The notes beneath the pieces were generated by a model. That model saw nothing but the letters and a program-made list of their open reading frames with translations. It did not search any database and had not been told where the DNA came from. Positions 23,762 through 43,778 of a DNA stretch of 64,000 nucleotides are shown in pieces. Within the stretch, counting starts at the first letter, position 1; the number at the start of each line of letters is the position of its first letter. A program made the position numbers and the translations under genes. Source of the DNA: a virus. The stretch spans positions 1 to 64,000 of the IMG/VR virus record IMGVR_UViG_3300044701_003175; one strand, 5' to 3'.

Positions 23762-24307
23762 GTGTGGAAACCAGCTAACAATTTAGAGTGGCAATCAGAA
23801 GCCCTATGCGCAGACCCAGATAACAAGCACTATAGAGATTGGTTTTTTTCAAAAGACCCAAAAGAAAAATATAACGCAAAAAATCTTTGTTTTGAGTGCC
23901 CAGTCAGATCTCAATGCCTTCAATGGGCACTTGAGCATCGTCAAATTTGGGGAACTTGGGGAGGAAAGGACGAGGGAGAAATTCGTCGTGCTCTGTCTGT
24001 TTCATATAAAGGTGAAGAAATAAAAAGAAGGAGATACCCGCACTGTCCTTTTTGCTCAGCTAGACCTTCAAAACTTGAAACAAGCTCTCAAGAAATTCCT
24101 GGTGGTGGTCGGTGGACTGTCGCCAAGATAGTTACATGTACGATGTGTGGCTTTTCTTGGCGCAGTCGGACCAGCGTAAATGCTATTGAAGCATATAAAA
24201 CTGACAGAATCGAAAAATCTGAAAAACGTGCAAAAATTAGAGAGAAAAAAGCAAGACAGCTTGAAAGAAAAAAACAAGCAAAACTTTTAAAGAAAACCTC
24301 TAAATAA
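23762..24307 (+). CDS. WhiB-like domain fused to a zinc ribbon and basic tail
   Basis: In this 181-aa protein residues 1-70 have the WhiB pattern C16, C43-x2-C46-x5-C52 and G-T-W-G-G (64-68). Residues 92-135 add a second metal site, C95-x2-C98 ... C126-x2-C129, of zinc-ribbon type. Residues 136-181 are a highly charged Lys/Arg/Glu helix. Stand-alone Wbl proteins are ~80-140 aa, so the zinc ribbon is an unusual extension that may add DNA or RNA polymerase contacts. The gene is transcribed apart from the first WhiB gene and converges with the halogenase (8-base overlap of the two ends). Confidence 0.8.
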   Translation: MWKPANNLEWQSEALCADPDNKHYRDWFFSKDPKEKYNAKNLCFECPVRSQCLQWALEHRQIWGTWGGKDEGEIRRALSVSYKGEEIKRRRYPHCPFCSARPSKLETSSQEIPGGGRWTVAKIVTCTMCGFSWRSRTSVNAIEAYKTDRIEKSEKRAKIREKKARQLERKKQAKLLKKTSK

Positions 24308-25805
24308 TAATATCTTTTGGATAGAGTTCAAATGGTGGTCTATCGGCTAAAAGTTTTCTCATATCATTTCTAAATGCTTGATAGTGCCCTTGAGCGTACT
24401 CGAACTGCTTAAACTGGATAAGTTCATTCATAGCTTGTTCTCTTGTTACATACCCCAATCCAGCTAGAGTCCACTTCCAAAGAGCATCTACTCCCCAAAA
24501 ATCCATAAAATGCATTACAGATGGAATTCTGCTTTTAGATCGCTCTATATAATTTTCTACAGCGGGGGATGTGATTTTTTCATATTTAATGGTCTTCCAA
24601 AACTCTGAATCTTCTCTACCACCTTGATAATGAAAAACTGTAAAGTCTTTGTAGTACTCATACATTTTTGAAGTTTTTGCGTTGTATTTTTCAATAGAGT
24701 GTGGATTCAAAGTTTTATCTTTAGTGTAGGAAAGATATTCTTGACAAAAAGTAAAAATCTGCATAATAGTGGCATGAATACTTGTTGCTTCCAAAGGCTC
24801 GATAAATGAGCTGGCAAGACCAACAACAAGAACATTACCTTTCCAAAATTGATCAACGCGACCAGACTCATATTTGATATGTTTAATTGGTTCAATAGGA
24901 TGGCCCATTACTTTTTCCGCTTCGGCTTGAGCCTCATCGTCAGAAAGAAATTGACTGCTATATACATAACCACAACCGCGTCGACCACCTGTTGGGGTTC
25001 TCCACATCCACCCAGAAGAGAGTGCCTCAGCAACTGTAACTGGTTGAACCTTTTCTTCTTCTTTGTAGGGAACAATAAATGGCATTGCTCTATCTACGAG
25101 AAGTTGGTCTTTATAATCAATCCAACCAATATTAAGTTTATTTGCTAAAACTCTTGAAAATCCAGTGGCATCGATAAAGAAATCGCCTTCAACAATTTCC
25201 CCTGTATCTAAAGTTAGACTTTGAACAATGCCAGTGCTATCAACCACCACGTCATTTATCACTGCATCAATATGTTTGGTGTTAGTTGTTTTTGTTATAT
25301 ATTCTCTAAGATATTTAGCAACTTTATGTGCATCAAACTGAAAGCCGTATCCTGCACTAACTGGCATCTTATTTAAATCATAAGCTTGACCTAAAGTTGA
25401 GGACAGATAAGCTTTTTCGGGGCCAAATTCTGAGACTACATAATTAAAAAGATAGTCTGGAGAACGTTTAGATGTCTCAGAACCATTAATTGGTGCCCAG
25501 TAGTGACCTTTCTCTTTTGCCCAGTTAATATGTTTAAGAGCGTATTTTGGTACACCATCTACTTTTGAAACAAAGTCTGAAAAATCAAAAGGCACTCTAT
25601 TTGGATTTAAATAATCAATATTGTTAAAAAGAGTTGCTCCATCTAACAAATCGTACATAAAACCACTGGTAGCTTCTCCCGCTCCAATAATTCCTATTTT
25701 CTGAGACTCTATGACAACAACCTCGTGAGAGTTTGGATTAGAAGCATGAATAGTGTAAGCAGACAACCAGCCTGCAGTTCCACCTCCGCAAACTACAAAT
25801 TTCAT
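24300..25805 (-). CDS. Flavin-dependent (tryptophan-type) halogenase
   Basis: This 501-aa protein has an N-terminal FAD-binding G-G-G-T-A-G-W (7-13) followed by V-I-E-S-x-x-I-G-I-I-G-A-G-E-A-T, the family signature. The catalytic Lys candidate is K87 in PKYALKHINW, eight residues before the conserved Trp as in known enzymes. The active-site Glu lies in FIEPLEATSIH (~334-344). The W-x-W-x-I-P motif reads W266-M-W-R-T-P271, with Thr for Ile. The length is normal for the family (~500-540). These enzymes use FADH2, O2 and halide to chlorinate, brominate or iodinate aromatic rings; a cyanophage homologue (VirX1) is known to iodinate. The ATG overlaps the stop of the glycosyltransferase (TAATG). 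The substrate is unknown; Tyr or Trp on virion proteins is one possibility. Confidence 0.88.
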   Translation of the reverse strand: MKFVVCGGGTAGWLSAYTIHASNPNSHEVVVIESQKIGIIGAGEATSGFMYDLLDGATLFNNIDYLNPNRVPFDFSDFVSKVDGVPKYALKHINWAKEKGHYWAPINGSETSKRSPDYLFNYVVSEFGPEKAYLSSTLGQAYDLNKMPVSAGYGFQFDAHKVAKYLREYITKTTNTKHIDAVINDVVVDSTGIVQSLTLDTGEIVEGDFFIDATGFSRVLANKLNIGWIDYKDQLLVDRAMPFIVPYKEEEKVQPVTVAEALSSGWMWRTPTGGRRGCGYVYSSQFLSDDEAQAEAEKVMGHPIEPIKHIKYESGRVDQFWKGNVLVVGLASSFIEPLEATSIHATIMQIFTFCQEYLSYTKDKTLNPHSIEKYNAKTSKMYEYYKDFTVFHYQGGREDSEFWKTIKYEKITSPAVENYIERSKSRIPSVMHFMDFWGVDALWKWTLAGLGYVTREQAMNELIQFKQFEYAQGHYQAFRNDMRKLLADRPPFELYPKDIII

Positions 25806-26875
25806 TAAGAATCCTCTTTAATAAGAGCTTTTAGACAAAACTCTAAATTTGCTTTTAATCTTTCATTGTCTGGCTCTAAACTAAAAGCAGCTTTAGCATG
25901 TTCTACTGCCTCTTCAAATTTTCCAAGATTAAAGGCAGAGATTGCTGCAAAGTCGTGCGGGGCAGCTCCCCAAGCTTTTGCCTCACAAAGATACTCGAGT
26001 GGTTTTTCCACAATAGCAAGAGCATCTACAGATGCTTCATAACACTTTTCCCAATCCTTGCGTTGATAGTAGAGTTCTGCAAGATCAACAAATGGCTCTC
26101 GTCTACCGGGTGCTTGCGCAATTGCTTTACGAAACCAAACCTCTGACTCTGCAGGAAGAGACTTACCAATAAATCTCATAGAAGCAGCACGTTCAGGTGC
26201 CCACCGAGCTGTAGGAAGTTCAAGATGACGCTTAAGCTCTGCCGCGGCTTGTTGATACTGACCATAAAAATAAAGTTCGCGCCCATAATAAAAAGCATTA
26301 CGGTCGTTATATGGGTCCTCTTGAACTGACATCGCAAGGAGTGGGAGATATTGGGACCTAGACTTTGTTGGGTCTGGGTGGTGGTGGGTTTCTACGCCCT
26401 CAAGCCACTCTTGAACTTCTTCGCGTCCGTATACATACAAGCACTCATGTACTGGGTGACGCCAACGATAATTTTTGCGAGTGTGGATGTGGTCGTAAGA
26501 AAATTCAAGTCCTGGTGTTCCATCATCATTCCAAGACCAGATGTGCTTATACCGAGGACGAGTAACTCCTCGCTCCCAAGCTCGACGTAATGGTTCTCTC
26601 CAATTTGGAGTAATTACTTCATCCATATCAAGAGATATGCACATGTCAATATCAATTGGTAACGCAGCCATAGCCGCGTTTCTTGCATCATCGAATCTCC
26701 ATGGAGAGACCCGAACATCAACTACATTGATTCCTAATTCTTTTGCACGTTCTACAGTTCCATCAGTTGAACCTGTGTCGGCTATCAGCAAGTAGTCAGC
26801 ATCTTTTGCAGCTTCGTACCATGTGTCTACAAATTGACGTTCGTTTAAAGCAATTGTGTATATAGCTACCTTCAT
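25805..26875 (-). CDS. GT2-family glycosyltransferase with TPR-like C-terminus
   Basis: This 356-aa protein has an N-terminal GT-A domain: IYTIALNERQFVDTW, then IADTGSTDGTVERA (nucleotide-sugar binding) and SLD83MD85EV (the D-x-D metal and sugar-nucleotide site). Residues ~185-350 are helical repeats with the TPR look (DRNAFYYGRELYFYGQYQQAAAELKRHL and later units), as in SunS-like and other protein glycosyltransferases that hold peptide substrates. No membrane segment is seen, so it acts in the cytoplasm. A Shine-Dalgarno AGGATA precedes the ATG. It is coupled to the halogenase and lies downstream of the collagen-like fibre genes on the same strand. Confidence 0.85.
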   Translation of the reverse strand: MKVAIYTIALNERQFVDTWYEAAKDADYLLIADTGSTDGTVERAKELGINVVDVRVSPWRFDDARNAAMAALPIDIDMCISLDMDEVITPNWREPLRRAWERGVTRPRYKHIWSWNDDGTPGLEFSYDHIHTRKNYRWRHPVHECLYVYGREEVQEWLEGVETHHHPDPTKSRSQYLPLLAMSVQEDPYNDRNAFYYGRELYFYGQYQQAAAELKRHLELPTARWAPERAASMRFIGKSLPAESEVWFRKAIAQAPGRREPFVDLAELYYQRKDWEKCYEASVDALAIVEKPLEYLCEAKAWGAAPHDFAAISAFNLGKFEEAVEHAKAAFSLEPDNERLKANLEFCLKALIKEDS

Positions 26876-26884
26876 ATGGATATC

Positions 26885-27463
26885 CTATCTTGTTCTTCGG
26901 TACCAACGCTGGTAGCCATCAACTATTACTTCAATTTTGTCTGAGTTAACTACAGAAAAAGCATCAATAGCCAGTTTTGGCTCATTTAACACACCTAATC
27001 CAGCTGACCATCTATAATCATCAAAAGCTATAATGCCTCCAACGTTAAGGCACTCTAGAGCATTAACTGCATCTTTTAGGACCCCATAGGCTGTATGGTC
27101 CCCATCAACGTAAATAAAATCATATTTTTCTAAATTATTTTTAAAAAACCAATCACTGCTGGATTTTACTTTTACAATTTTTCTGCTGTCTCGGGCGTCT
27201 TTTGTTTTTGAATCATACACCTGCTCTACAGTCCCCCAATTCATCTGATGATGCGAAGGCTCGTCAGATCCCTCCCACGTGTCAACGTCAATCAAAACAG
27301 AGTTTGGATTATGCCGTAAAACGTTATTCCACAACCATAGAGATGCATCACCTGTGTAGGCACCTATTTGAAGCATTCTTGCTGGTTTATCTTTATATGC
27401 CATTAAATGAGCATTAAAATTAACTTCACCATCATTAGCAAACCAATTAGGTAGTGTTGTCAT
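26885..27463 (-). CDS. Class I SAM-dependent methyltransferase
   Basis: This 192-aa protein has the SAM-binding motif I as MLQIGAYTGDASLWLW (~30-45), an acidic strand end LIDVDTWEG and the motif IV-like strand YDFIYVDGDHTAYGVLKD, a pattern of Methyltransf_24-type enzymes that methylate sugars or small molecules. GIIAFDDY follows. The Shine-Dalgarno AAAGGA lies before the ATG. It sits 9 bases before the glycosyltransferase, so joint action on a glycan is plausible; the substrate is not shown by the sequence. Confidence 0.8.
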   Translation of the reverse strand: MTTLPNWFANDGEVNFNAHLMAYKDKPARMLQIGAYTGDASLWLWNNVLRHNPNSVLIDVDTWEGSDEPSHHQMNWGTVEQVYDSKTKDARDSRKIVKVKSSSDWFFKNNLEKYDFIYVDGDHTAYGVLKDAVNALECLNVGGIIAFDDYRWSAGLGVLNEPKLAIDAFSVVNSDKIEVIVDGYQRWYRRTR

Positions 27464-27496
27464 TTTTGTCCTTTCGACCCTTAAGCCTATATTAAA

Positions 27497-28126
27497 TTAT
27501 GAGTATTGGCTAGCACCACTTGCGCTGTCATTAGCTGTCCCAGACCAAAATCCATTATAAGAACCGTCAAAATATGTTCCTAAAGAGCTTGAATATTCAG
27601 CCATAGCGGAGTCTACATAGAAAACGTCAGTATTAAAAGATGAAGTAGTGACAACTCTCATAACAAAAAAGTTAGCGCTAGGGCTTTTTGTGAATGACCC
27701 GCTAAGTCTTACCCATCCGTCAGCAGCGGTTAAACTGGTTACTCCAATATTTCCACTAGCAATAGCAGCGCTTGAAACTTCTGTTTGATATTGAAGATGT
27801 CGTAAATAATATGTAGCATTTGAAGCAAGCGAGTCTAACTTTATATATGCGCTTAAATACCAAACATCATCCGTAGAGAAAAAAGGAATTCTGGTTACAT
27901 TTTGAACTCCGCCTCCTGAAGTATTAGTTACTTTTAATGAAGCAGAGCCAGTATTAAATTCAGATGTAACCCTCTCTAGAGTTGTTCCAGCAAAAGATGT
28001 CCAATCAGAAGTTGAAACTTCAAAAGTAGGATTTTTAATATAATTAACCCTATACCCAAGTTCTTTTGGTTTGCTTACATCTTTTAGAGAACCTGCAGCA
28101 CCAATGCAACCAACATTTACTGGCAT
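27497..28126 (-). CDS. Fibre-associated protein with carbohydrate-binding-like beta sandwich
   Basis: I choose the ATG overlapping the stop of the upstream gene (TAATG at 28128-28124), giving 209 aa; an upstream in-frame ATG at 28159 would add 11 residues. Residues ~30-200 read as a jelly-roll CBM4/9-like domain: YIKNPTFEVSTSDWTSF, then TGSASLKVTNT, WYLSAYIKLDS and WVRLSGSF, with a final FYVDSAMAEY typical of such modules. These domains bind polysaccharides, so it may be a receptor-binding head that pairs with the collagen-like stalk encoded just upstream. Confidence 0.65.
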   Translation of the reverse strand: MPVNVGCIGAAGSLKDVSKPKELGYRVNYIKNPTFEVSTSDWTSFAGTTLERVTSEFNTGSASLKVTNTSGGGVQNVTRIPFFSTDDVWYLSAYIKLDSLASNATYYLRHLQYQTEVSSAAIASGNIGVTSLTAADGWVRLSGSFTKSPSANFFVMRVVTTSSFNTDVFYVDSAMAEYSSSLGTYFDGSYNGFWSGTANDSASGASQYS

Positions 28127-28587
28127 TAAACTAGCGCCAAATCTCCAACCAAAATCCATTCGTTCTCTGCAATCTTTATCGCAGATGCGACAGAGTACTG
28201 AGTGCGAAGTTTATTGGTTGGTGTAGACCTAACTGTGACTCCAGTGTCTCCTTCAACAGTTAACTGACCTGCGCCATATTGAAGAAAATCAATTTTCTGT
28301 CCTATAGAAAAAAGAACAGCGGCATCTGTTGGAATAGTAGCAACAAAAGCTGCACCGCTATCACACTTTAAAATTTTTCCAGCATCTGTTAGCGCAACGG
28401 TAAAAGAGGTACTTTGCGTAGATACCACTTGAGCCGTTGACCAATCACCTTGAGGCCCAGTTACACCTTGTGGACCAGTTGGACCTGTAGAACCGAGAAC
28501 ACCCTGAGGGCCCGTCGGACCAGTTGCACCAGCAGCAATTGGAGTCCATATTCCTCCATTAGAGTCATATGATTTAATTACTGGCAT
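28126..28587 (-). CDS. Short collagen-like fibre protein
   Basis: This 153-aa protein has a short N-terminus (MPVIKSYDSNGGIWTPI), about nine Gly-X-Y triplets in two short runs at 23-48 (GPTGPQG type), then an ~100-residue C-terminal beta domain (FTVALTDAGKILKC ... RTQYSVASAIKIAENEWILVGDL). The same C-terminal domain ends the 629-aa collagen-like fibre at 44927-46816, so it is probably a trimerisation or tip module. The Shine-Dalgarno AGGTGA precedes the ATG. It is coupled to the carbohydrate-binding-like protein downstream. Confidence 0.8.
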   Translation of the reverse strand: MPVIKSYDSNGGIWTPIAAGATGPTGPQGVLGSTGPTGPQGVTGPQGDWSTAQVVSTQSTSFTVALTDAGKILKCDSGAAFVATIPTDAAVLFSIGQKIDFLQYGAGQLTVEGDTGVTVRSTPTNKLRTQYSVASAIKIAENEWILVGDLALV

Positions 28588-28603: not shown

Positions 28604-30190
28604 CTATGGAATAGCGTGCGTCCAAAGAGCACGGTTAGACGTTGCAACATCAGCGGATAGTACTGATGAAGGTAAATCGGTTTGTGCAGCTACTGCCCCA
28701 GATATTCTAGGAGAAAGAGCAAGAATTGAATTTATCGCGGTTGAAGATGTGTGCGAATGACCAGCTACTGTAGGAAGAGTATTAGCAGTGGTAATTAAAA
28801 GTGCATAAGCATATGTAGTACCAGCTGTCTTAGACCAAGGTGAGGCTAAAGTAACTTCATATGAAGTGTTAGCTGCAGAAAATACAGATGTGTCACTGGC
28901 TGTAGATGCTACTAAAGTTAAATCTCCAGTGGTGTTGTCTACTGAATATACTCCCATTTTAACTAAAGTCGGTGTAGCTCCTGCTGCTGTTCCACAGGAC
29001 ATAGAAAGTTTTGTTATTGTTTCTGTTTTAGTTGCTTTTCTGTATGTCAAAAGCATAGTTCCAGAAGTTCCGTAAGAAAGGTTAGCTATAGCAGCTTTTC
29101 TGCTAATGCTAGCTTCTCCTAAAGTTAGAACGTCAATGTCAAATAGCTGATTATCCAAGTTTGTAATTTGAGATGTAGAAAGTGTGAGTTCATCAGCGCC
29201 TCCAACAGAGTGTGTAGAGGCGTGAGATAAAATTGCTGCATCTACAGTTGTATCTACCCAAATTAATGAAGTATTTGCTGGAGGTGTTGCACCAACTTCA
29301 ATACCAGTATCACCTGTAGAACCCGTAGGACCAGTTGGACCTTCTGGTCCAGTTGGACCAGTTGGACCTTCAGGACCTGTAGGACCAGTTGGACCAGCAG
29401 CACCAGTTGGACCACCAGGTTCTCCCGGGGCACCTGTTGGACCTGTTGCGCCATCAGCACCACCAATACCTTGAGGACCTTGAACACCTGTAGGTCCAGT
29501 AGGACCAGTAACACCGATTGGGCCAACAAGAGCCCACTCTTGGTTTAAGTCAGACCACGCGTATACAAACTCTTGACCAACAACATAAGCATCACCAATT
29601 GCACCAATTGGGTTATCTGCTTGAAGGAGAGCTAAAGTTGAATAAGTACCAAGAATACGAACACTAGAACCTTGTGGACCAGTAGGACCCGAAGGACCAG
29701 TAGGACCAAATGGACCTTCAGGACCAGTAGGGCCAGTAGGGGCAACAGTTGCCACTGTATTAAATCCATTACCTACATAAACTTTTACTTCATCAGTTTC
29801 GGAGTCAATCCAAATGTCACCAATAGTTGGAAATCCAGGCTGAGTAGGGGTATATACGACATTGGCTCTACCAGCTTGGTCATACAGCAGTGTGCATGAA
29901 AAATTTGCAAGAGAGGTTGAAGATCTTACCCATACTTGATCTCCAACGTTTAAAGCAAATCTAAAAGTCTCAAAAGATTGACCAACACTTACAGACAAAT
30001 TGTCGACAATATACGACCTAGTTGCTTCTACGCCAAGTGCTTCAGCTGGTTCAACATAAATACTTACAAGACTTTCTATATTTGCCCTATTAGCAACAAT
30101 TACAGAAGCCACGCCAGCAGTGTCATTTGTGGCTAAAAGAGTGGCAACATTAGAGTTGGGGGTAGCAAGACCGAGGCGTTTTACTGGCAC
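28604..30190 (-). CDS. Collagen-like tail fibre
   Basis: This 528-aa protein starts with GTG after AAGGAGTG. Residues 1-105 form a beta domain ([22 protein letters not shown]) shared with the 793-aa fibre and probably docking to the virion. Triplet runs of GPT/GPE type (~150-180 and ~225-295) flank a small module (~180-222, [19 protein letters not shown]) found in several fibres here. The C-terminal ~220 residues form a beta-rich head ending [13 protein letters not shown]. It is likely a trimer with a collagen triple helix in the shaft. Confidence 0.85.
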
Positions 30191-30243: not shown

Positions 30244-31830
30244 CTAGACTGTAGCCCTAAAGAACGAAAAGACACGCTGTGAGCCCATGGGGACATACAT
30301 AATCTTATTTTCCCCCCCGTGTAGGCTGTTCACGGAAGTATAATCGTCATCTAGCCCAGTTGTATACATAACACTTAAAGCTTTGTTTCTAATAAATGCT
30401 ATCACTCTTCTGGGGTCCCAATCTGGGTGCATTTGATACACAAGGGCAGCGACCCCAGCTACCTGTGGGGCAGCCATTGATGTGCCAGATAGGAGTTGCT
30501 GTTTAAAAGAATTATTCAAAAAATAAGCAAAGTTACTGTTGTCATCATTTACTGCGCTCATGGCGCTAATAATTCTAGAGCCAGCTGCGTACATATTGAC
30601 GCCAGGACCAGAATTACTAAAATTAGCTTTTCTATCTAACAAACCTTCAGTAGTGTGGTCAACAGCACCAACAGTAAATACTTTATCTGAAACTGTTAAA
30701 TTTCTGCCCGGTGTACCGCCTCGGTGGTAGTAGTAAAACCCGAAGTCAGTCAAAATGTAGTTATTATAATCAACTCCACCTTGTACATCAATTTTTAAAA
30801 ATTCATTTCCCGCAGCATTACAAAATAAAATTCCAGCGTTGGCTCCAGAAGCAATATCAGCATCTACTGAAGAAACTCGGTATGGATAAAAATATGTATC
30901 TGGGGCTACTAAAGAACCAGTGTGACCCTTTGCTGGGTCTAAAGTTGCACCACTCCAAGAAACACCTCTATAATTTCCACCACTTATCCCAAATAAAGTT
31001 GCACTTTCATCTAATCCAAAAGAAAAAGCTTCTAAATCGGCACGATGAAAAACTCCATAACCCCAGCTATTGCACACTACTGTTGGTCTTCCGTTGGTTT
31101 TGTTGTTATGCCAACCAATTAAAACATCAAAAGCGGTAGCTGTGTCTAACCCCTGACCTGGGTCACGAGATGCTCTAAGACCTTCTAACTTTATAGAAAA
31201 AATTTGAGCATTTTTTGCCCAGCCAAAAGTTTTTCCAGCAACTGTTGCTGCTACGTGGGTTCCATGACCGTCATAGTCTTGATAAAATCCATCTGGCATA
31301 GAACCAGAAACACCACTAAGAGCAAACCAATCTATAGGATTAAATCTGCTGGCATTTGAGTTTCCAACCTCAGTAAATTCTGGGTGATTTGCTTGAATAC
31401 CACTATCGATAATTACAACGTCTACGCCTGTACCATCTAAAACATAATCATATGTTCCGCTAGGATCGCCTAAGCCTGTTCCATAAACATTAGAAGTATT
31501 TATATGTCTAAGAAGGCCCCAGTTAGCTTTTGCCCCAGTTTGGGTACTTAGCTTGTCAAAGTTTCCTTCTTGAAAAGCCAGTTTTACTGGTTTAAACATG
31601 TTCAAATCTTGAACATCTATAACTCGAGGGTCTTCTCGTAAACGAGCAGCTTCCTCATCTGTCAACCAGTAAGAAGTGTTATTTGGATTAGTAGGTCTTT
31701 CATTTGCAACTTCTACTGGTCTATTTGGGATGGTGTCTAAAATACTCTCAGGGGATAGCAAATCTTCCCACACAGAATCGGTAATTTCCATACTCTCTGT
31801 GGTGACTGTGTATTCCTTATATTCACTCAT
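30244..31830 (-). CDS. Subtilisin-like serine protease (S8) in the fibre cluster
   Basis: This 528-aa protein has a complete subtilase active site: D142 in VVIIDSGIQ, H189 in YDGHGTHVAATVAG, oxyanion Asn N342 in FCNAAGNE and S451 in LLSGTSMAAPQVAG. An N-terminal region (1-~110) could be a propeptide or docking domain. There is no signal peptide and no transmembrane segment, so it should stay in the cell and may be virion-bound. It lies between two collagen-like fibre genes in the same direction. Likely roles are cutting host surface proteins at adsorption or maturing a fibre. Base use looks like its neighbours. Confidence 0.92.
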   Translation of the reverse strand: MSEYKEYTVTTESMEITDSVWEDLLSPESILDTIPNRPVEVANERPTNPNNTSYWLTDEEAARLREDPRVIDVQDLNMFKPVKLAFQEGNFDKLSTQTGAKANWGLLRHINTSNVYGTGLGDPSGTYDYVLDGTGVDVVIIDSGIQANHPEFTEVGNSNASRFNPIDWFALSGVSGSMPDGFYQDYDGHGTHVAATVAGKTFGWAKNAQIFSIKLEGLRASRDPGQGLDTATAFDVLIGWHNNKTNGRPTVVCNSWGYGVFHRADLEAFSFGLDESATLFGISGGNYRGVSWSGATLDPAKGHTGSLVAPDTYFYPYRVSSVDADIASGANAGILFCNAAGNEFLKIDVQGGVDYNNYILTDFGFYYYHRGGTPGRNLTVSDKVFTVGAVDHTTEGLLDRKANFSNSGPGVNMYAAGSRIISAMSAVNDDNSNFAYFLNNSFKQQLLSGTSMAAPQVAGVAALVYQMHPDWDPRRVIAFIRNKALSVMYTTGLDDDYTSVNSLHGGENKIMYVPMGSQRVFSFFRATV

Positions 31831-31842
31831 CTACCAGTCCCA

Positions 31843-34224
<2,382 letters not shown>

Positions 34225-34233
34225 GTGTCTCTC

Positions 34234-37200
34234 CTACGCCTGAGCTTCTGCCCATGACATCTTCGCTGCGGTTAGTGTTGAGTTTCCAGTCAATCGAGAT
34301 ACTGCAATTGTCAAGATGTCTGGACCGTCTGGGAAAATAGAGTCTCCACCAAGAATCGAGTTTGAAAGCTCGAACAGGGTTGATACGTCTACCACGGTTG
34401 TATCTTCTGCACCACTAGCACCACCAGCGGCACGGAAGTTATAAACCTGAACTCCACCTGAAACAGTGTCTTGAGCGGTGTGCTCAACAATCTGAGTCAA
34501 GGAAGGTGAATCTACACCAACAAAGTTTAGGTTATTTAGACGTGGATTGAGGAGAACCTTAACGTCAACCAGTTGTGTCGTAGATACACCAATTTCTTGC
34601 AAACGTAGCTGCATTCGGTTAAGAACGTCTCGGTCTCCAAGCTTTCCAGTCAAACCTTCAGATACTGAAGGAGAGAGTCGAATTGAGAGCAATGGCTGGT
34701 AATTAGGGCCAGAGGTGTTGTTCAATGAGCCGTTTGGATACAAGAAGTAAGTGTACTGAGTGTTTCCTTGGCTAGTGAAGTTGATTACCTCACACATAAT
34801 AATGGTTGGGTCAGCACCACTTGCCACAGTTGCGGTAGGTGCTTGATAGGTAAACGCCGTGTCACTTGTTCTAGTGATGTAAAACGGACCATTTGCTACA
34901 CGGGTTGAACCATATACACCAACATACATACCTGTGGTTAGGTTGTGTGGAAGTGTTGTAGTAATAGTTACTGTAGTACCAGCTTGAGCACTAGTAATGG
35001 CTTGACCACCAGAATAACTAGATCCCTTGCTAATTGTTACGTTAGGAGGAGTCAAGTGAATCAAGTTTGGAGAGTTAACCAAAACTCCATACAACGCATC
35101 ATTTTGAAGTGTTGCGGTTGTATTAGAACCAACAATTTGAGTTGCTGGGTTTAAGTTATTTGTTCCAGGGAATCCATTAGTAGCAATTGACTGGAACTGT
35201 AGAAGGTCACCTTGAGCAAAACCGTGACTTTGTACAGTGAACAAGTCAGTTGTTAGGTTGATGCCAGATGAAGCAAACGACTTAGCTGTGGTGCCTGGGA
35301 TGTTCAAAGTCTGGCTTGTACCAGTGAACAAGTACGCGTTGTCATCATCGAATCGACCATCCATGATAACCGAAGTACCCCAGTGGAAGAGGTATGGGAT
35401 ATAAGTTGGGTTCTCGTAAGTCACAACTTCGTAGCGACCTGGCAAGTTACCAGAGCGGAAGTAAGACTCGAACAAGTTGTTGTTGTGAACAAACTCGTGG
35501 ACGTATTGAACCTGACCATCTACAGTCTTGAAACCGAAACGAATTTTACCTGCACCGTACCAAGAGTAGTCAATGTAAGCCATCTGAATACGAGAGATGT
35601 CAAGATTATAACCAGTTGGACCAGATCCATCACAGATATCAACATTCCACTGGCTTTGAGGAATTCTTGTATCTACTGTCTTAGTAATCACAATACCTGA
35701 TTTAGCTGGGACAAAGGAGTGAGTTGTAGTAGTTCCAGTATTTGACAGATTTACGTTAACAGTCGAATCTGGGTCAGCAACAAGTTTAAAGCTGTTGTTA
35801 TTAATTAGGTCTACATAATATGTACGACCGTTAATCATTCCACCAATAGGCTCACCGTCGATTGAGTTGTAAACAACTGGAAGACGATTTGAGAATCCGT
35901 GACCAATAATGGTAATTACGTCAGTAGAAATATTAACTTGAGTTTGCGGATTAAACTCTTTCTCTGTTCCAGAAGATCCCTTATACTCAGGTCTAACTGA
36001 CATACGAGTGTCTGATGTAATTTCAGTGATACGGTAAGACTGACCGCGCATAACTACATAATCGCCCACATCCAACTGAGCTTGGAAGCTGGTGTTATTT
36101 CCAAAAATAATCTCTGAACCTTGAAGAGCAGAAGCTGTACCAGCTAGCTGCTGAGTGGATGAACGACGGACACAGTAGATTGCTTCTCCATCGAACTCAA
36201 AGAAGGCACCGTTCTGGAAGTCAAACATACCTTCACGTACAGCACCATTTTCCCACTCGCGGACATAGAACTGAGGGAATCCGTAAGCTCTAGACTCTAC
36301 AATTGGCTCTTTTGCAGTAAAGCGGAAAGTCGTCAAATCAACAACAGTGACTTGGAATTCTCCGTTATATACAGTACTTACATCTCCAAAAGAGTCTTCA
36401 GCAGCATTAATTACAATAAACAAACCAGAGACAAGACCGTGAGGGCGTCGAGTCTTACATTCAATAGTAATCTCGCTAAATTTAGTCATGCTCTCTAGGT
36501 CAATTGAAGGCTGGAAGTTGACACCGCAAGAAGACTGAATACCCTTACCTGACTGATAACGGAAGTACTTACGAGTCTGACGAACAATCTGACCAAATGA
36601 TGTCTTAGAACCTACCGACATCTCAACGCCACCGTCGAATGGACGGTGCAGTGAGTAGCCCTGCGGACGTACATAGACGAAAGTTGGGTAAGAGTAAGAA
36701 ACAGCGTCATATGCATTTGCATATGGTCGGTCTACAGTGATCTGTGTGTCACCACCAATAGCGGTAATCTTTCTAATAATAGGTCCCACTGGGGCTGTAC
36801 TAGTTAGAGAGAAAGCAGTTCCAGTACCTTGAGTGCTAAAGTCTACAGCTTGAAGGTTGTTATTAGCATCATTTAATGTGGTGTGAAGAGTGATTTCAGT
36901 ATTTGATATAGCTCTTACATAGTAGTAGTAACCATCAACCAAAGGAGTTGGGGCCACTCCACCGTTTGTAGCAAACTTGACTACTTCTCCAGTTTCAAAA
37001 TTATGAGTCTTAACAATACGGTTGTTTGTGGTGTTTACATCAACATCTGAAAATGTTTTATTTGTTCTAGACAACTGTAAATCAGTTCCAGAGCCCACAG
37101 TGGTGATGTCAATTATGTTTGTATTGGCTGTGGCATTAGCAGCTGTAGGGTGAAGAGTGAATGTTGAGCCAGCACTTACAACTCTTACGTAATAAGTTGT

Positions 37201-40200
37201 TCCCTCTACTAAAGGAGATGGAGCAGTTCCTGAACCAGCAGAGAACACTACTGCATCAGCTGTAGCAAAAGTATTGCTCTTTGTGATTAAGTTTGTTCCA
37301 GTGTTAACATCAGCTGCTTCAAACACGAGGGTTCCGTGTTGTTTAGTTGTGTTTGCTGGGAATAAGCGGAATCTGTCTCCAACTTTCAAAATCTTCGAGA
37401 AAGCTGTACCAGTACCGTTAACAAGAACAGAGCCTGAAACAACAGATACTGTTCCAGAACCTGTTACGTTACCGTTAATCTGGTCTGTGATTAGTTTGTG
37501 ACCTACACCAGTACCCCAGTCAGTAACACTGAGAGTAATACCTGCTGCAGCATTTTCTGCAGATGTTGCGAGCTTTAAGTAGTCTCTGTTAATAGCTACA
37601 ACATAGTATTGTGTGTTATTTATTAATCCACCAATATCTGTAGCAGAATCTCCCTGTTCGTATGTAACCTCAGTACCAGTTGTGAAACCATGAGACGGCA
37701 AGAAGAAGGTGTCGGCTTCAAGGTTTACAGTAGATCTTGGGTTAAATACTTTAGTAATAATTGGAACGTTACCAGCTGCTTCTACAGTAAATGTGGTTGC
37801 AGACGGTGTAGATGTGATGGTGTAAATTCCATCTGGAGTCTTGCTTAGTGAGCGTAGAGTATGACGACCAACGCCAAGTGGGGTATCAGTGAGATCTACA
37901 GCAGTTCCAGCATCTGCTTCTTCTGGTGTAGTAGCAAGTTTAATGTTGTCACCATCTATGAAAATTACATAGTAAGGAGTAGCAGTAGTTAGCCCATCTA
38001 CAGCTGTCTGACCCTTGCTGTCATATTCAACCAACTCTCCTTGCAGGAACCCATGGCCTGGCAAAGTTATAGTGTTAGTTGCGTAATCAAGAGAAGTAAT
38101 AAATAAGGAGTGGGTTCCAGTAGCAGGCCACGGTTCTTGACTTGTTATATTTGCAATAACAGTAAGAGCTTTATTCGTAGCAAGTCTAACAATGCTATTG
38201 TCAACCTTAACAATGTAATAAGTAGTGTTATCAGTCAAACCAGGAATAACAGTGTTGGCTTCCAAACCTTTGGAGTAGCGCACTGCCTGACCAGATACAA
38301 GACCGTGGTTAGGGATGTAGAGAGTGTCTTCCAGTGCATTAACAGTTAGGAAGATAAAGCTGTGACCCGTACCAGTTCCAGCACCTGTAAAGTTGATAAA
38401 TGTTGGAGAATTAAGAGAAGACTTCAAACGAATCTGGTTAGCATTTAAAACCTCAGCGACATAGTAAGTGGCTTGGTCAATAAGAGGAGTAATTGCAGTT
38501 CCATCACCAACGCTATAACGAAGAGGCTGGTCAACCAAAAATCCATGGTTACTAATAGTCAAAGTATCTGTTGCAGTATTTACAACAACTCGACTGATCT
38601 TAGAGGTAGTAGAAACTTCTCTAGAAGATGGTGAAATTAAATTGATGTTTGTAAAGCTAGGAGAAGGGGTTGTACTCAAACGATAGCTAAATGCATCAAT
38701 AGTGTTTACATAATAAATACCATTGTTTTGAATTCCAGTTGGTGGAACCCCATTAAACGACACTTGGATTGCCTCACCATTATTTAATGTATGTAAGGCA
38801 GCACTATGAATTGCATCGTTTTGAATATCAAGATTAATTGGTACAAATGAGTGATATGAAGAACCAGCTGGCTCTATTGCAATAGCATTAGTTCCATTTT
38901 CAGCATCTTGAGCAGTTGGGTGCACGCTGTTACCAGTAGTAAAGCTAGAAACCAAAGTTACTGCAACTTGTCCTTCACCAGTGTGATATGCATTTAGATT
39001 TGCAATAAGGGTTCCATTGAATGTGTTGGCACCATCAAAAAATCCTGTAGAAGTTTTAACGTTTGCGGCTGTAGCCACAACGAATGAACCACCACCACCA
39101 CCAGAATGGTTAGCAGTTGTAGAGCGAGCTCCACCACCACCTGAGTAGCCACCGCCACCACCAGACTGACCAGTTACGTTTCCGTCTGACTGACCACCGC
39201 CACCAAAACCACCATAACCACCAACAAGAGTGTTAGTGCCCATTGTCAAACCATCAAGGAACGAACCACCACCAAGTGTTGTTGTGTTACCAAATCCACC
39301 GTTTTGTCCGCGAGAGAAGAAACCTCCACCAGCAGCAGAACGACCAAATGGGTTAGTAGAACGACCACCAAAACCTGCTTGACCACCAGCTGGTTGATTA
39401 TTAGTAGATGTACCGCCTAATTGAGTAAGAACAGCATCTCGTCCAGCACCAACGTTAGACTCACCAGAACCTCCACCAGCAACAAATAAAGGCTCATTAC
39501 CAGTTTTACGAACAACAAATGTTCCACCACCAGAGCCGCCCCAAGTAGTTCCAGAAGAGGGCGCAGCTCCTTGCTGACCAACGGCAATTGTAATTACTTC
39601 ACCCTTAGTTAGTGCAATTTCACCTTCAACAATTGCGCCTCTACCTATACCGCCAGAACCAGCGCCATTGTAGCCTGATGCACCTCTAACATTAAATCTG
39701 TAAATACCAGAAACTGGAACTGTCCAGTCTTGGTAACCAACAAAAGCACCTTGAACTAGATATGTCTCATCCCAAGTGGTGCTGTATGAAGCACGCATTT
39801 CCTGTTGGGTAGGGCCAACTCTTCCTGTTTTTCCGCATGTTGTAAATGTGTGGCTGGTAAATGCATAAAGAGCCTGAGAACCCGCGAACTCAGAAATAGA
39901 GACGTTCTTTAAGAAGTATGTGTCTCCACTTGTAAGCCCTGTGATTGGGGTTCCGTTTGTGTAATACTTAACCGCTTGGTTTGTAGGAGTTGATGCGTCT
40001 ATGTTTAGTTTATTAGAGAAAACAATTGGTGTATTAAATTTAATAGAGCCAGCCACGCTGTCAGTAAAATCGAGTGCAGTTCCATTAAAAGTTGTGCTAA
40101 ATTTTAATTTTTTAGGTTCAGTAGTTGTAACGTAAACAAGACCATTTTCTGTAAAACCTGTTACAGAACCAACACCAGAGGTGTATAAAAATGCAACTCC

Positions 40201-40332
40201 TGGAGCTAGAGGAGTTGGGATAACGCTCTCTCCACTGTTTTTGAAGTAAATAAAATCTTCATCAATGTTGACGTTGACTCGAGCAAAAGTGTGAGTACCC
40301 TGCGCACCTGCAGCTGTTACATCAATAGGCAT
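34234..40332 (-). CDS. Giant (2032-aa) virion protein with beta repeats and glycine-rich domain
   Basis: Residues ~225-430 are a glycine-rich domain (G-x-G-Q-Q-G-A ... F-V-V-A-G-G-G-S-G) like the Pfam Gly_rich/ALK-type fold. The stretch ~490-1160 holds about nine repeats of N-H-G-F-x-x-G-x-x-V-x-Y ... T-x-Y-Y-V ... I-x-L-A-T. The ~1200-1700 part contains YIDYSWYGAGKIRFGFK and SGNLPGRYEV, sequences I associate with large structural proteins of T4-like marine phages. The C-terminal ~300 residues are Ig/beta-like again. It is the largest protein in the window. An AAGGAGAG site precedes the ATG. The likely role is a long side fibre or baseplate appendage; exact placement is unknown. Confidence 0.75.
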   Translation of the reverse strand: MPIDVTAAGAQGTHTFARVNVNIDEDFIYFKNSGESVIPTPLAPGVAFLYTSGVGSVTGFTENGLVYVTTTEPKKLKFSTTFNGTALDFTDSVAGSIKFNTPIVFSNKLNIDASTPTNQAVKYYTNGTPITGLTSGDTYFLKNVSISEFAGSQALYAFTSHTFTTCGKTGRVGPTQQEMRASYSTTWDETYLVQGAFVGYQDWTVPVSGIYRFNVRGASGYNGAGSGGIGRGAIVEGEIALTKGEVITIAVGQQGAAPSSGTTWGGSGGGTFVVRKTGNEPLFVAGGGSGESNVGAGRDAVLTQLGGTSTNNQPAGGQAGFGGRSTNPFGRSAAGGGFFSRGQNGGFGNTTTLGGGSFLDGLTMGTNTLVGGYGGFGGGGQSDGNVTGQSGGGGGYSGGGGARSTTANHSGGGGGSFVVATAANVKTSTGFFDGANTFNGTLIANLNAYHTGEGQVAVTLVSSFTTGNSVHPTAQDAENGTNAIAIEPAGSSYHSFVPINLDIQNDAIHSAALHTLNNGEAIQVSFNGVPPTGIQNNGIYYVNTIDAFSYRLSTTPSPSFTNINLISPSSREVSTTSKISRVVVNTATDTLTISNHGFLVDQPLRYSVGDGTAITPLIDQATYYVAEVLNANQIRLKSSLNSPTFINFTGAGTGTGHSFIFLTVNALEDTLYIPNHGLVSGQAVRYSKGLEANTVIPGLTDNTTYYIVKVDNSIVRLATNKALTVIANITSQEPWPATGTHSLFITSLDYATNTITLPGHGFLQGELVEYDSKGQTAVDGLTTATPYYVIFIDGDNIKLATTPEEADAGTAVDLTDTPLGVGRHTLRSLSKTPDGIYTITSTPSATTFTVEAAGNVPIITKVFNPRSTVNLEADTFFLPSHGFTTGTEVTYEQGDSATDIGGLINNTQYYVVAINRDYLKLATSAENAAAGITLSVTDWGTGVGHKLITDQINGNVTGSGTVSVVSGSVLVNGTGTAFSKILKVGDRFRLFPANTTKQHGTLVFEAADVNTGTNLITKSNTFATADAVVFSAGSGTAPSPLVEGTTYYVRVVSAGSTFTLHPTAANATANTNIIDITTVGSGTDLQLSRTNKTFSDVDVNTTNNRIVKTHNFETGEVVKFATNGGVAPTPLVDGYYYYVRAISNTEITLHTTLNDANNNLQAVDFSTQGTGTAFSLTSTAPVGPIIRKITAIGGDTQITVDRPYANAYDAVSYSYPTFVYVRPQGYSLHRPFDGGVEMSVGSKTSFGQIVRQTRKYFRYQSGKGIQSSCGVNFQPSIDLESMTKFSEITIECKTRRPHGLVSGLFIVINAAEDSFGDVSTVYNGEFQVTVVDLTTFRFTAKEPIVESRAYGFPQFYVREWENGAVREGMFDFQNGAFFEFDGEAIYCVRRSSTQQLAGTASALQGSEIIFGNNTSFQAQLDVGDYVVMRGQSYRITEITSDTRMSVRPEYKGSSGTEKEFNPQTQVNISTDVITIIGHGFSNRLPVVYNSIDGEPIGGMINGRTYYVDLINNNSFKLVADPDSTVNVNLSNTGTTTTHSFVPAKSGIVITKTVDTRIPQSQWNVDICDGSGPTGYNLDISRIQMAYIDYSWYGAGKIRFGFKTVDGQVQYVHEFVHNNNLFESYFRSGNLPGRYEVVTYENPTYIPYLFHWGTSVIMDGRFDDDNAYLFTGTSQTLNIPGTTAKSFASSGINLTTDLFTVQSHGFAQGDLLQFQSIATNGFPGTNNLNPATQIVGSNTTATLQNDALYGVLVNSPNLIHLTPPNVTISKGSSYSGGQAITSAQAGTTVTITTTLPHNLTTGMYVGVYGSTRVANGPFYITRTSDTAFTYQAPTATVASGADPTIIMCEVINFTSQGNTQYTYFLYPNGSLNNTSGPNYQPLLSIRLSPSVSEGLTGKLGDRDVLNRMQLRLQEIGVSTTQLVDVKVLLNPRLNNLNFVGVDSPSLTQIVEHTAQDTVSGGVQVYNFRAAGGASGAEDTTVVDVSTLFELSNSILGGDSIFPDGPDILTIAVSRLTGNSTLTAAKMSWAEAQA

Positions 40333-40346
40333 TTATACTCTCCTTC

Positions 40347-43034
40347 TTATAGTTTCTGAATGCTGATTTGACCATTGCCACTACTAGCAACTTCAGAATT
40401 GCTTTGATTAGTTCCAACGTTGTAAGAACCAGCACCAGCACCGTTTGCTGACCAATATGCACCAGGACCACCTGAGTAGCCACCGCCACCACCAGCACCG
40501 CCAGCCCAACCGCGAGCGGCTCCACCGCCACCAAACCCACCGTGGGTTGAGTAGTTACCGCCGTAAGCACCGTTTACGAATGAAGTACCAGGTCCTGCCC
40601 AGCCTCCACCATTTCCGTAGAAACCAGCACCTCCACCCATGGATTCACCGTTTCCACCATTTCCATTGCTAGAACCGCCCCATGAGCTAGAGCCTCGAGA
40701 GCTGGTACCAGTGGTTGCGTCCGCATTTCCATACCAACCTGGAGATGCACCACCGCCGCCACCAGCAACTAGATATGGAAGATTGTCAGAGCGTCGAGCA
40801 ACGTAGCTACCTCCGCCGCCACCACCGTTGTCACCCATACCACCGCCAGCTTGACCAACAACAAGTTTAATTTCGTCACCAAGCTGCCATGCAAAATCGC
40901 CACGCATACGAGTACCGTAACCACCACGGTTACCCCAGTTAGAGGCCCAACCGCCAGCTGCTCCGTATGCTTCAACTCGATAAGTTGCTGCTTCGGGAAC
41001 TGTCCAAACAATTGTTCCAGTATTGCCTGGCATAGTGATATATGTATTTCCCCAAGATGGGTTTCCTGCACCAGAACGAGCTTGAGTCAGGTTTGGACCA
41101 CCAGCACCACCAGCACCACCTGGAGTGAAGGTTACGCTCGAGAATGTATACAAAGCAGGTGGCTGATCGAACTGATAGAGATGAGTTTGAAAAGCCGAAA
41201 TACCATCAACGTCAGTACCAGTAATAATTACTGTACGTCCTGGAGGTGCAATATTCTCTGTAGGAGTTCCTGACACAACACCAGTACTTGTATTTAAAGT
41301 AAGACCTGAAGGAAGAGTTCCACTTGTGACTGCATATGTAATAGGAGCGGTCATACCAATAGCAGTTACAGTAGTTGGTGTAATTGCGTATCTAGAAAAA
41401 CCTGTTCTAGTGATAGTTTGAGGACTTAGCTCTCCAACTGTCTGATTTAAAGTAAAATTGTGTTGGTCTAATACTTGCGCGACAAAGTAAAAATTCTTAA
41501 CTTGAGAAGCATCTACTACAGAAAAAGCACCATTTTCTGGAGCTGTATATCTAACCATGTCAAAACGGGTGTATCCATGGTCTTTTAAGTGAAAAATGTT
41601 TTTATCTGGAGAAATACCAATTTGTTTAAAAGTTTGAGTACCAGTTCCACCAGAAATTGAAGTAATAGTTGTACCCGTTGGGGTCGGCTTTAAGGTAAAC
41701 GCATAATTTAGTCCACCAGTACTAAAGAAAGAATCAATAAAATATGTGGTGTTGTTTGTAAGACCGTTTGCCGCTGTTCCAGTGGTGGTGTAGTACACCA
41801 TAGTTCCAAAGTACCAATTTAAAGGTACTTCTTGATCAGAAGCTACGTTAACCAAAGAACCGCTGTACGATGTAACTCTTCCAACTTCAATTGATAGATT
41901 AGCACCATCAAATTCTTTTGGCGCATCTTTAATAATTACCACTTCAACTTCAGTTGCAGCATTTTGATTATTTCCAGCAAAAGTACGAGCTTGGTTAGCA
42001 AGCTGGAAGGTTCCAGTCATTGTCGTTGGTATTGCAATTGCATCGCCATCTGGAAGTTCAGAGACTTGGAAAGTAGAACTTGAAGTTCCAAGAGTGGTAT
42101 TAGTTTTTAAAAATACAACGCCTCTTGGATTTGTAGAAAAGAACCCTCCACCAGCAACAACGTCGTAATAAAGAGGGGTTCCAATTACCTTACCAACAAA
42201 ATTTTCTGTTCCATGAGCAACAGTAATTGTATTGTCTACAAGATTCTGAGCACTCATATTGATAGAGCTAGTTACACCCGCCACGGTGGCTGAGTTTGAC
42301 CAATCAATGTTAATTTGAGAAAGAGTATTAGAACCGTCAAAAGTCTGAGCGGTAGCTGAGTTTGAAGCATCAAAAGATTTTGCCTCATTGTTATTGGCAG
42401 GGAACTCTTGAGAAATAGTAGAGTTTAGATTCAAGAAGTAGAAAGGTGTATCTACATAAAAACCGTGGGTAGAGCCTGTAGTAACAGTTAGAGTTGAAAT
42501 AGACTCACCGTCGGTAGTAATACCTGCCTCGTCTGAAAGGCGAAGCTGGGAGCCTTGGAAGAACTCTCCAGTGATAACAGATGAATACAAATCTTCAATA
42601 GAGTTGTTACCCTGCTGAATGTCGCGGCACAAGTAGGTAAATGTGCTGCCATTTGGAATAGAGTTGATGATGTATGCACCATCAGCGGTAATTGATTTTG
42701 TTCCAGTTACGTTAATAGGAATACCGACCGCCAGCCCGTGTGGGAGGCCAGTGGATACGGTAATTTCTCGAGTTCCATCATTTGTTGTAATCGCAATGAT
42801 GTTAGGAATTGTGGTGTCACCAGACTTCGAAAAGAATGAAGGAGTGTTGTTGATAAGCTCAACAGTCTCCCACTTGGTAGGTTGAAGTCCGTACTCAAAG
42901 TCCGTATCGATGAGGTTTTGTGGCTCGGATACGCGAAACTTAGTTACTGGGTCAATAAACTCTTTCGGAAAACCAGTAATTTCTCCACCAGCGCCACCGC
43001 TGCCACCAGAACTACCGCCTAGAAAACCGGGCAT
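40347..43034 (-). CDS. Large (895-aa) virion protein with Ig-like and glycine-rich domains
   Basis: A Gly/Ser-rich start (MPGFLGGSSGGSGGAGGE) leads into FCCH-like repeats (~95-470; HGLAVGIPINVTGTKS is one core). An Ig-like module at ~550-615 (APITYAVTSGTLPSGLTLNT) matches the putative Ig domain He_PIG. The C-terminal ~240 residues are a glycine-rich domain (VVGQAGGGMGDNGGGGGG) paralogous to that of the 2032-aa neighbour. The two genes are 14 bases apart and probably encode partners of one appendage. A GAGAGG site lies upstream of the ATG, after a 93-base leader. Confidence 0.75.
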   Translation of the reverse strand: MPGFLGGSSGGSGGAGGEITGFPKEFIDPVTKFRVSEPQNLIDTDFEYGLQPTKWETVELINNTPSFFSKSGDTTIPNIIAITTNDGTREITVSTGLPHGLAVGIPINVTGTKSITADGAYIINSIPNGSTFTYLCRDIQQGNNSIEDLYSSVITGEFFQGSQLRLSDEAGITTDGESISTLTVTTGSTHGFYVDTPFYFLNLNSTISQEFPANNNEAKSFDASNSATAQTFDGSNTLSQINIDWSNSATVAGVTSSINMSAQNLVDNTITVAHGTENFVGKVIGTPLYYDVVAGGGFFSTNPRGVVFLKTNTTLGTSSSTFQVSELPDGDAIAIPTTMTGTFQLANQARTFAGNNQNAATEVEVVIIKDAPKEFDGANLSIEVGRVTSYSGSLVNVASDQEVPLNWYFGTMVYYTTTGTAANGLTNNTTYFIDSFFSTGGLNYAFTLKPTPTGTTITSISGGTGTQTFKQIGISPDKNIFHLKDHGYTRFDMVRYTAPENGAFSVVDASQVKNFYFVAQVLDQHNFTLNQTVGELSPQTITRTGFSRYAITPTTVTAIGMTAPITYAVTSGTLPSGLTLNTSTGVVSGTPTENIAPPGRTVIITGTDVDGISAFQTHLYQFDQPPALYTFSSVTFTPGGAGGAGGPNLTQARSGAGNPSWGNTYITMPGNTGTIVWTVPEAATYRVEAYGAAGGWASNWGNRGGYGTRMRGDFAWQLGDEIKLVVGQAGGGMGDNGGGGGGSYVARRSDNLPYLVAGGGGGASPGWYGNADATTGTSSRGSSSWGGSSNGNGGNGESMGGGAGFYGNGGGWAGPGTSFVNGAYGGNYSTHGGFGGGGAARGWAGGAGGGGGYSGGPGAYWSANGAGAGSYNVGTNQSNSEVASSGNGQISIQKL

Positions 43035-43127: not shown

Positions 43128-43778
43128 TTATGTACCTAACCACCAGCTGTAACTAGCTGCAAATGACCCCTGAGCCCCTGTTGGACCGACAGGTCCAGTG
43201 GAACCACCCTGAGTTTGAATAAAAACACCATTATAAAAAACGTAAGTAATTGCTGTATTAGTGTCAAACCAAGCATCACCATTTACAGCAGTTAGTAGAT
43301 CAGGTGCAGTTGGACTAGCTGTGAATTTACCAACAGGACCAGTTGGACCAGTTGGACCTGGAACCTCGGATTGAGCTCCAGTTGGACCAGTTGGACCAGT
43401 AACACCGCGAGGACCTGTAGGACCTTGTGGACCAGTTACATTTGAATCTGCACCAGTAGGTCCAGTAAATCCACGCTCACCACGCTCACCTTGCAAACCT
43501 TGCGGACCAGTAGGACCTTGCGGACCAGTAGAACCTACAGGACCTTGAGGACCAGCAACATCAGATACGGGACCCGTCGGACCAGCAATACCTTGAGTAC
43601 CAGTTGGTCCTTGTGGACCTGTCGCACCTGTCGGGCCTTGAATACCTTGAGGTCCAGTTGGGCCAGTAGGAGTTACACGCTTAGCTTCCCAGACAGCGCC
43701 AGTCCAAATCCAAGTCTGCCCACCTGCGGTGAACTCTTCGCCAACCACTACGGGTGTTGGAAAATCAATTGCTGCCAC
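43128..43778 (-). CDS. Collagen-like tail fibre (216 aa)
   Basis: The start is GTG after AAAGGAGA. Residues 1-35 ([27 protein letters not shown]) form a short N-terminal module shared with two other fibres here, probably the attachment site. Residues ~37-145 are an almost unbroken run of Gly-X-Y triplets rich in GPT and GPQ. The C-terminus (~150-216) is a small module with [20 protein letters not shown] and ends in ASYSWWLGT. With no large head domain, it may be a stalk or adaptor that binds a partner. Confidence 0.85.

Follow-up and report, generated by a model that had tools for sequence, protein, structure and literature searches.

The window analysed here is a 64,000-nucleotide stretch of viral DNA (positions 1 to 64,000 of IMG/VR virus record IMGVR_UViG_3300044701_003175). 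The full record is 136 kb long, and genome-wide counts cover all of it. Open reading frame (ORF) and family searches place a flavin-dependent halogenase (FDH), a glycosyltransferase (GT) and a methyltransferase (MT) as the last genes of a ~26-kb minus-strand operon for collagen-like fibres, and we examined these three genes as a candidate system for decorating the fibres. The source is a lake-dwelling phage, and a WhiB-like gene and kinship to the Actinomycetia phage DSL-LC01 point to an actinobacteriophage. The operon end is laid out as follows:

23762-24307, plus strand: WhiB-like gene, converging on the cassette and a constant neighbour of the GT (convergent WhiB in IMG/VR GT contigs)
24300-25805, minus strand: FDH, tryptophan-type, 501 residues, final gene of the operon (Pfam Trp_halogenase, 1.1e-84; phrog_2928)
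25805-26875, minus strand: GT, a GT2 enzyme with C-terminal TPR helices, 356 residues, proposed fibre O-glycosyltransferase (Glycos_transf_2 and TPR; phrog_13126, 1.8e-117)
26885-27463, minus strand: MT, class I S-adenosylmethionine-dependent, 192 residues, proposed sugar O-methyltransferase (Methyltransf_24, 1.3e-14)
27497-28159, minus strand: 220-residue protein whose gene separates the fibre genes from the modifying genes (relatives have homologues in this position)

An initial annotation, made from the sequence alone, had described the three modifying genes as contiguous with the fibre genes on one strand. All ORFs were recovered at the places it gave, on the minus strand and with the tight junctions it reported: MT and GT are separated by 9 bases, and GT and FDH overlap by one base (TAATG). 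The MT starts 33 bases past ORF 27497-28159, which overlaps the collagen-like ORF 28126-28587, and the 3' end of the FDH gene overlaps the WhiB-like gene by 8 bases. Upstream of the modifying genes lie the fibre genes and two large virion protein genes, all on the minus strand:

28126-28587, minus strand: short collagen-like fibre protein, 153 residues (10 consecutive GPT-type triplets; C-terminal part matching minor tail and virion proteins)
28604-30190, minus strand: collagen-like fibre protein, 528 residues (Collagen Pfam, 4e-11; tail fibre PHROGs)
31843-34224, minus strand: collagen-like fibre protein, 793 residues (Collagen Pfam, 1.8e-17; tail fibre PHROGs)
34234-40332, minus strand: large virion structural or baseplate-like protein, 2032 residues, without collagen runs (phrog_5838, 5e-134; phrog_2885, baseplate wedge)
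40347-43034, minus strand: virion structural-like protein, 895 residues (phrog_5838, 3e-15; He_PIG Ig-like domain)
43128-43778, minus strand: collagen-like fibre protein, 216 residues (39 Gly-X-Y (GXY) triplets; tail fibre PHROGs)
44927-46816, minus strand: collagen-like fibre protein, 629 residues (85 GXY triplets; tail fibre PHROGs)
46828-47529, minus strand: collagen-like fibre protein, 233 residues (15 GXY triplets; tail PHROGs)
47544-53243, minus strand: long collagen-like fibre protein, 1899 residues, the richest supposed acceptor (246 GXY triplets, with Thr at Y in 133)

The ~26 kb of fibre genes in the initial annotation corresponds to the span 27497-53243, but that span also holds a subtilase and the large non-collagen virion or baseplate-like proteins. 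Throughout the genome, GXY runs of at least six triplets are confined to 28.4-52.9 kb, directly upstream of the cassette; apart from two antisense mirror runs, every one is on the minus strand. Seven ORFs account for 501 GXY triplets. Gly-Pro-Thr (GPT) is the commonest (141 of 501), in agreement with the earlier description of the fibres as rich in this triplet, and Thr occupies the Y position in 261 triplets and the X position in 6.

The arrangement is conserved among phages. Scans of IMG/VR yielded 62 GT, 17 FDH and 33 MT loci. In contigs with at least 3 kb upstream of the GT, GXY runs were found upstream in 41 of 43, the nearest run mostly 0.7-4 kb from the GT, and the MT was upstream in 42 of 43; a convergent WhiB gene was present in 44 of the 47 contigs with 4 kb downstream. 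The FDH was downstream of the GT in 21 of the 50 contigs with 3 kb downstream and upstream in 6, where it sits between MT and GT wherever an MT is present; in the remaining 23 none lay beside the GT. In most relatives the GT keeps its place between the fibre genes and WhiB. Ratios of nonsynonymous to synonymous substitution rates (dN/dS) are ~0.04 for the GT, ~0.05 for the FDH, ~0.1 for the MT; the small collagen ORF gives 0.17-0.19. These values are rough, since synonymous sites are near saturation, and they exclude a comparison of the subtilase with L008, which was out of frame. The recurrence of the order fibres-MT-GT-WhiB, together with strong purifying selection on the three enzymes, argues that this is no chance cluster. 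Variants occur: in contigs L059 and L060 the GT and MT face the fibre operon from the opposite side, and in L062 the GT is flanked by collagen-like genes. The latter contig also has a sugar-gene-rich stretch beside the collagen genes and GT (L062:2512-9965), in which mutase-like, cytidylyltransferase-like and several glycosyltransferase-like ORFs were recognised by eye. Phage DSL-LC01 (OQ999401, PMC10611076) resembles the window: its collagen fibre operon also ends, beside WhiB, in an FDH and a GT (61% identical), but the FDH precedes the GT and there is no MT.

Pfam matches, secondary structure and a structural model agree on a layout of the GT (~350 residues) in which a GT2/GT-A domain is followed by C-terminal TPR repeats. 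The model has a predicted local distance difference test (pLDDT) score of 84.5, and its best Foldseek matches are SunS (1.2e-12) and ThuS, followed by TPR proteins that include the OGT TPR domain and GmaR. SunS and ThuS share 12-15% identity with the GT in the structural alignments. Independently of the fold search, the GT profile (A3) matches GmaR (4e-11) and SunS (1e-7). SunS and ThuS, S-glycosyltransferases of glycocin biosynthesis, modify a Cys residue of a bacteriocin and GmaR modifies flagellin; the best solved folds and profile matches combine, as the GT does, a GT2 domain with helical repeats, and act on peptide or protein acceptors. In phages PaBG, Lu11 and Erwinia phage Y3, more distant homologues of the PHROG_13126 type belong to tail or structural gene clusters.

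A linkage of the GT family to collagen was found independently in bacteria. We scanned the GT alignment against 84,980 bacterial and archaeal genomes and analysed the best 80 loci among the matches listed (L133-L212), so that the counts describe the closer relatives only. In 63 of the 80, from Oscillospiraceae and other Firmicutes, a GPT-rich run lies upstream of the GT on the same strand, nearly always at a distance of 0.16-0.7 kb, whereas the control orientations gave one locus with a downstream run and one with an antisense run. Two of the run-negative loci (L136 and L185) carry short or broken collagen ORFs. Of 3686 triplets at these bacterial loci, 1217 are GPT and 761 GAT. Neither MT nor FDH was found in the best 80 loci, and the bacterial unit therefore consists of collagen and GT only. 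The GPT collagen gene and GT of Oscillospiraceae and other Firmicutes probably form a large family of collagen glycosylation modules. The human faecal scaffold MT838491 (L116), filed as 'Bacteriophage sp.', is similar: its GT, 45% identical to that of the window, directly follows a GPT collagen-like ORF. This GT is 97% identical to one in Oscillibacter sp. ER4, and the scaffold is therefore most likely bacterial DNA.

A characterised precedent is the 358-residue SgtA of C. difficile, which comprises a GT-A domain and four TPRs, is encoded immediately upstream of bclA3, and transfers beta-O-linked N-acetylglucosamine (GlcNAc) from UDP-GlcNAc to Thr of the GPT repeats (PMC7157674). Compared by description, unaligned, SgtA and the window GT share a GT-A domain with C-terminal TPRs, a length of 358 versus 356 residues, a gene that adjoins a GPT-repeat collagen-like gene and a surface-exposed acceptor. 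They differ in that the window GT is phage-encoded, has several fibre genes to serve, shares its operon with MT and FDH, and is separated from the nearest collagen gene by two short ORFs (MT and 27497-28159). The independent bacterial linkage to collagen, the SunS/ThuS-like fold and the SgtA precedent together make it very probable that the GT acts on the GPT fibres, and they bear out the earlier view that a GT2 enzyme with TPR helices suits a protein substrate.

Other viral systems are less similar. Virion glycosylation has been described for mycobacteriophages Che8, Corndog and Myrna (Freeman et al. 2023, as cited in PMC12363180), where actinobacteriophage glycosyltransferases likewise modify virion proteins; according to the portion of PMC12363180 consulted, which does not mention a halogenase, the modified proteins are those of the capsid and tail tube, not collagen-like fibres. 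No mycobacteriophage was among the matches counted in a tblastn search with the GT. The Mimivirus collagen lysyl hydroxylase/glucosyltransferase (cited in PMC8968730; compared by description) is also a virus-encoded enzyme that modifies viral collagen, but it uses hydroxylysine chemistry and belongs to a giant virus of amoebae.

The MT (METHYLTRANSFERASE) was modelled with a pLDDT of 90.3, and its top fold match is MeT1, a mannoside 1-O-methyltransferase (5.8e-10). SpnH is also among the matches, and catechol-type enzymes score alike, close behind MeT1; the fold is common to catechol and caffeoyl-CoA methyltransferases. The earlier suggestion that the MT caps a sugar is favoured by its top match and by its position next to nearly all GTs, and is weakened by the sharing of the fold with catechol-type enzymes and by distant relatives without collagen nearby. 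The chances that the MT acts on a fibre sugar appear about even.

Our overall interpretation, to which we assign a probability of roughly 0.7, is a late fibre-decoration cassette in which the GT glycosylates, the MT methylates and the FDH contributes an optional third step. Gene order, linkage, conservation, catalytic motifs, folds and the separate GT-collagen linkage of bacteria are observed; which sugar is donated, which residue accepts it and what MT and FDH do are inferred, as follows. The GT would be an SgtA-like protein glycosyltransferase, adding a sugar to Thr at Y of Gly-X-Thr triplets in the fibres made just upstream while its TPR part grips the repetitive acceptor. The sugar would most likely be GlcNAc, drawn from host UDP-GlcNAc, and the MT would most likely O-methylate this Thr-linked sugar. 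The optional FDH step would probably target exposed aromatic residues in globular fibre parts. A GT that glycosylates the collagen-like surface protein encoded beside it is already known; the system proposed here differs in being phage-encoded, linked to a fibre operon and joined by an MT and an FDH. The interpretation offers a testable function for a phage glycosyltransferase that is widespread, and it leads one to expect a large two-gene module for collagen glycosylation in Firmicutes of the gut. If it is correct, the receptor-binding fibres of freshwater phages are marked with sugars, methyl groups and perhaps halogens, none of which sequence alone reveals, with a bearing on host recognition and fibre stability.

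The FDH retains three features of PF04820, namely GGGTAGW (the GxGxxG motif for binding flavin adenine dinucleotide), the Lys in VPKYALK and the Glu in EPLE. The aligned Lys and Glu, which are catalytic in PrnA-type enzymes, are kept in the window FDH and in nearly all rows compared. At the WxWxIP position the window FDH has WMWRTP, with both Trp residues and the Pro kept and Ile replaced by Thr; the full motif is present in four relatives (L024, L034, L040 and L066). The best PDB matches are Thal, RebH and PrnA. In the FDH tree the window type forms its own group of 18 rows (support 100/99), and the type located between MT and GT in other phages forms a group of 5 rows (84/90) that joins the genome's second FDH and that of DSL-LC01 on long branches (93/94); two lineages have therefore reached the same spot in the fibre operon. 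The DSL-LC01 FDH (L004:17222-18793) is divergent, with altered motifs (WVSKIP, EPLD), and may be inactive or of other activity, so the halogenase reading draws nothing from it. That halogenase was classed as an auxiliary metabolic gene by its authors (PMC10611076). The second FDH of the present genome (82053-83618, minus strand) is directly preceded on the same strand by a phrog_7084 protein.

Fibre halogenation, a potentially novel step in such a cassette, is plausible, and action of the FDH on a fibre protein is a possibility that we regard as somewhat short of even. The specific proposal that it modifies Tyr or Trp of the fibres is hampered by the optional presence of the gene and by collagen stems nearly devoid of aromatic residues (14 across 501 triplets), and is helped by the two FDH lineages at the locus and by cyanophage FDHs found behind fibre genes. 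A serious contender, with nearly as much to be said for it as against it, is that the GT (with or without the MT) decorates the fibres alone and the FDH is an unrelated accessory gene for a small molecule, placed at a cargo hot spot at the operon end. The patchy distribution of the FDH, its swaps of position and lineage, the location of the second FDH outside the fibre module and the lack of a prominent aromatic-rich target would fit such a gene, as would the FDHs of cyanophages Syn1, P-SSM2, S-SSM7, S-H38 and S-B64, which are not beside fibre genes, so that fibre linkage is not universal. Against an accessory gene stand the arrival of two lineages at one spot beside GT and MT, the one-base overlap with the GT gene, the dN/dS near 0.05, and the consistent position of VirX1-type FDHs in other phages, behind fibre genes and ahead of 2-oxoglutarate (2OG) oxygenases.

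VirX1 is a flavin-dependent iodinase of cyanophage Syn10 (PDB 6QGM); of two tandem Syn10 FDHs it was assigned by length (530 vs 531 residues). Like the window FDH it belongs to the same Pfam family, has the catalytic Lys and Glu and is encoded behind tail-fibre genes. The window group is, however, separate from the Syn10 pair in the tree and is not the VirX1 branch, and the partners of VirX1 are 2OG-oxygenases, not GT and MT. In Syn10, S-WAM1, S-CREM1 and S-SRM01 the FDH lies behind or among tail-fibre genes; in S-CREM1 it is one gene past a collagen-like gene and ahead of a row of 2OG-oxygenases. In a set of 80 IMG/VR loci related to the Syn10 FDH (L213-L292, low-complexity masking), a fibre marker was present within 3 kb upstream in 60 of 64 and a 2OG-oxygenase downstream in 53 of 61, and the two markers had no match in two control sets. 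These contigs share ancestry, and the counts measure conservation, not independent events. In Syn10 the FDH pair is followed by a phrog_7084 protein, and 60 of the 80 loci have one. The association of VirX1-type FDH with fibre genes and 2OG-Fe(II) oxygenase arrays suggests a fibre modification cassette in cyanophages. We tentatively propose that phages halogenate their own tail fibres, the fibre-operon FDHs of freshwater actinophages and the VirX1-type enzymes being protein halogenases (Cl, Br or I). With equal caution, the partner chemistry might be glycosylation and methylation in actinophages and hydroxylation by 2OG-oxygenases in cyanophages. On this concrete hypothesis, the natural substrate of phage halogenases, the biocatalyst VirX1 among them, would be the phage's own tail fibres.

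Several observations weigh against the fibre-decoration cassette as a whole. Conservation of the phage GT partly reflects shared ancestry; some GT and MT pairs lie away from the collagen genes of their own contig; most MT relatives with 48-55% identity are without a collagen-like run in the vicinity; and the FDH is missing beside the GT in the 23 of 50 contigs counted above. Thr at Y is frequent in Gram-positive bacterial collagens in general (PMC8968730), and alone is therefore no proof of glycosylation. In contig L350 the fibre gene ahead of the GT is Gly- and Thr-rich but not collagen-like. This last case, and the homologues of PaBG, Lu11 and Erwinia phages, whose tail or structural gene surroundings include no annotated collagen gene, would be expected if the GT glycosylated Thr/Ser-rich virion proteins generally, with collagen stems not its specific target. 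We consider this unlikely: close phage and bacterial relatives specifically adjoin GPT collagens, and contig L350 has collagen genes elsewhere. Modification of the host envelope (wall glycans or teichoic-acid-like polymers) by the three enzymes during infection, for superinfection exclusion or release, is improbable given the late-operon location behind fibre genes, the pairing of the GT family with collagen-like proteins in bacteria and the TPR and peptide-glycosyltransferase fold, even though phage glycosyltransferases have been tied to modification of DNA or of the host surface (PMC10202952, PMC7029224) and DSL-LC01 and L062 have other glycosyltransferases and UDP-galactopyranose-mutase-type genes.

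The initial annotation had held that finding these genes without collagen-like fibres would speak against their joint role. Three GT and MT contigs without a local collagen run (L347, L350 and L352) gave 18-25 collagen-domain matches elsewhere when searched whole, and the contigs with zero matches are fragments. The argument that such contigs refute the fibre link was rejected on the matches in these three, and action of the GT on fibres survives.

Among the remaining features, the 27497-28159 protein had no match in Pfam and PHROG searches; judged by eye only, it has the look of a carbohydrate-binding-type beta domain. An NCBIfam search returned sub-cut-off matches only, a promoter scan gave no excess over shuffled sequences and a terminator scan found little. 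One further gene interrupts the collagen-like fibre genes:

30244-31830, minus strand: subtilase-family (S8) protein within the fibre operon (Peptidase_S8, 4.1e-34)

Its position between collagen-like fibre genes is kept in relatives, and it may be a fibre maturation protease.

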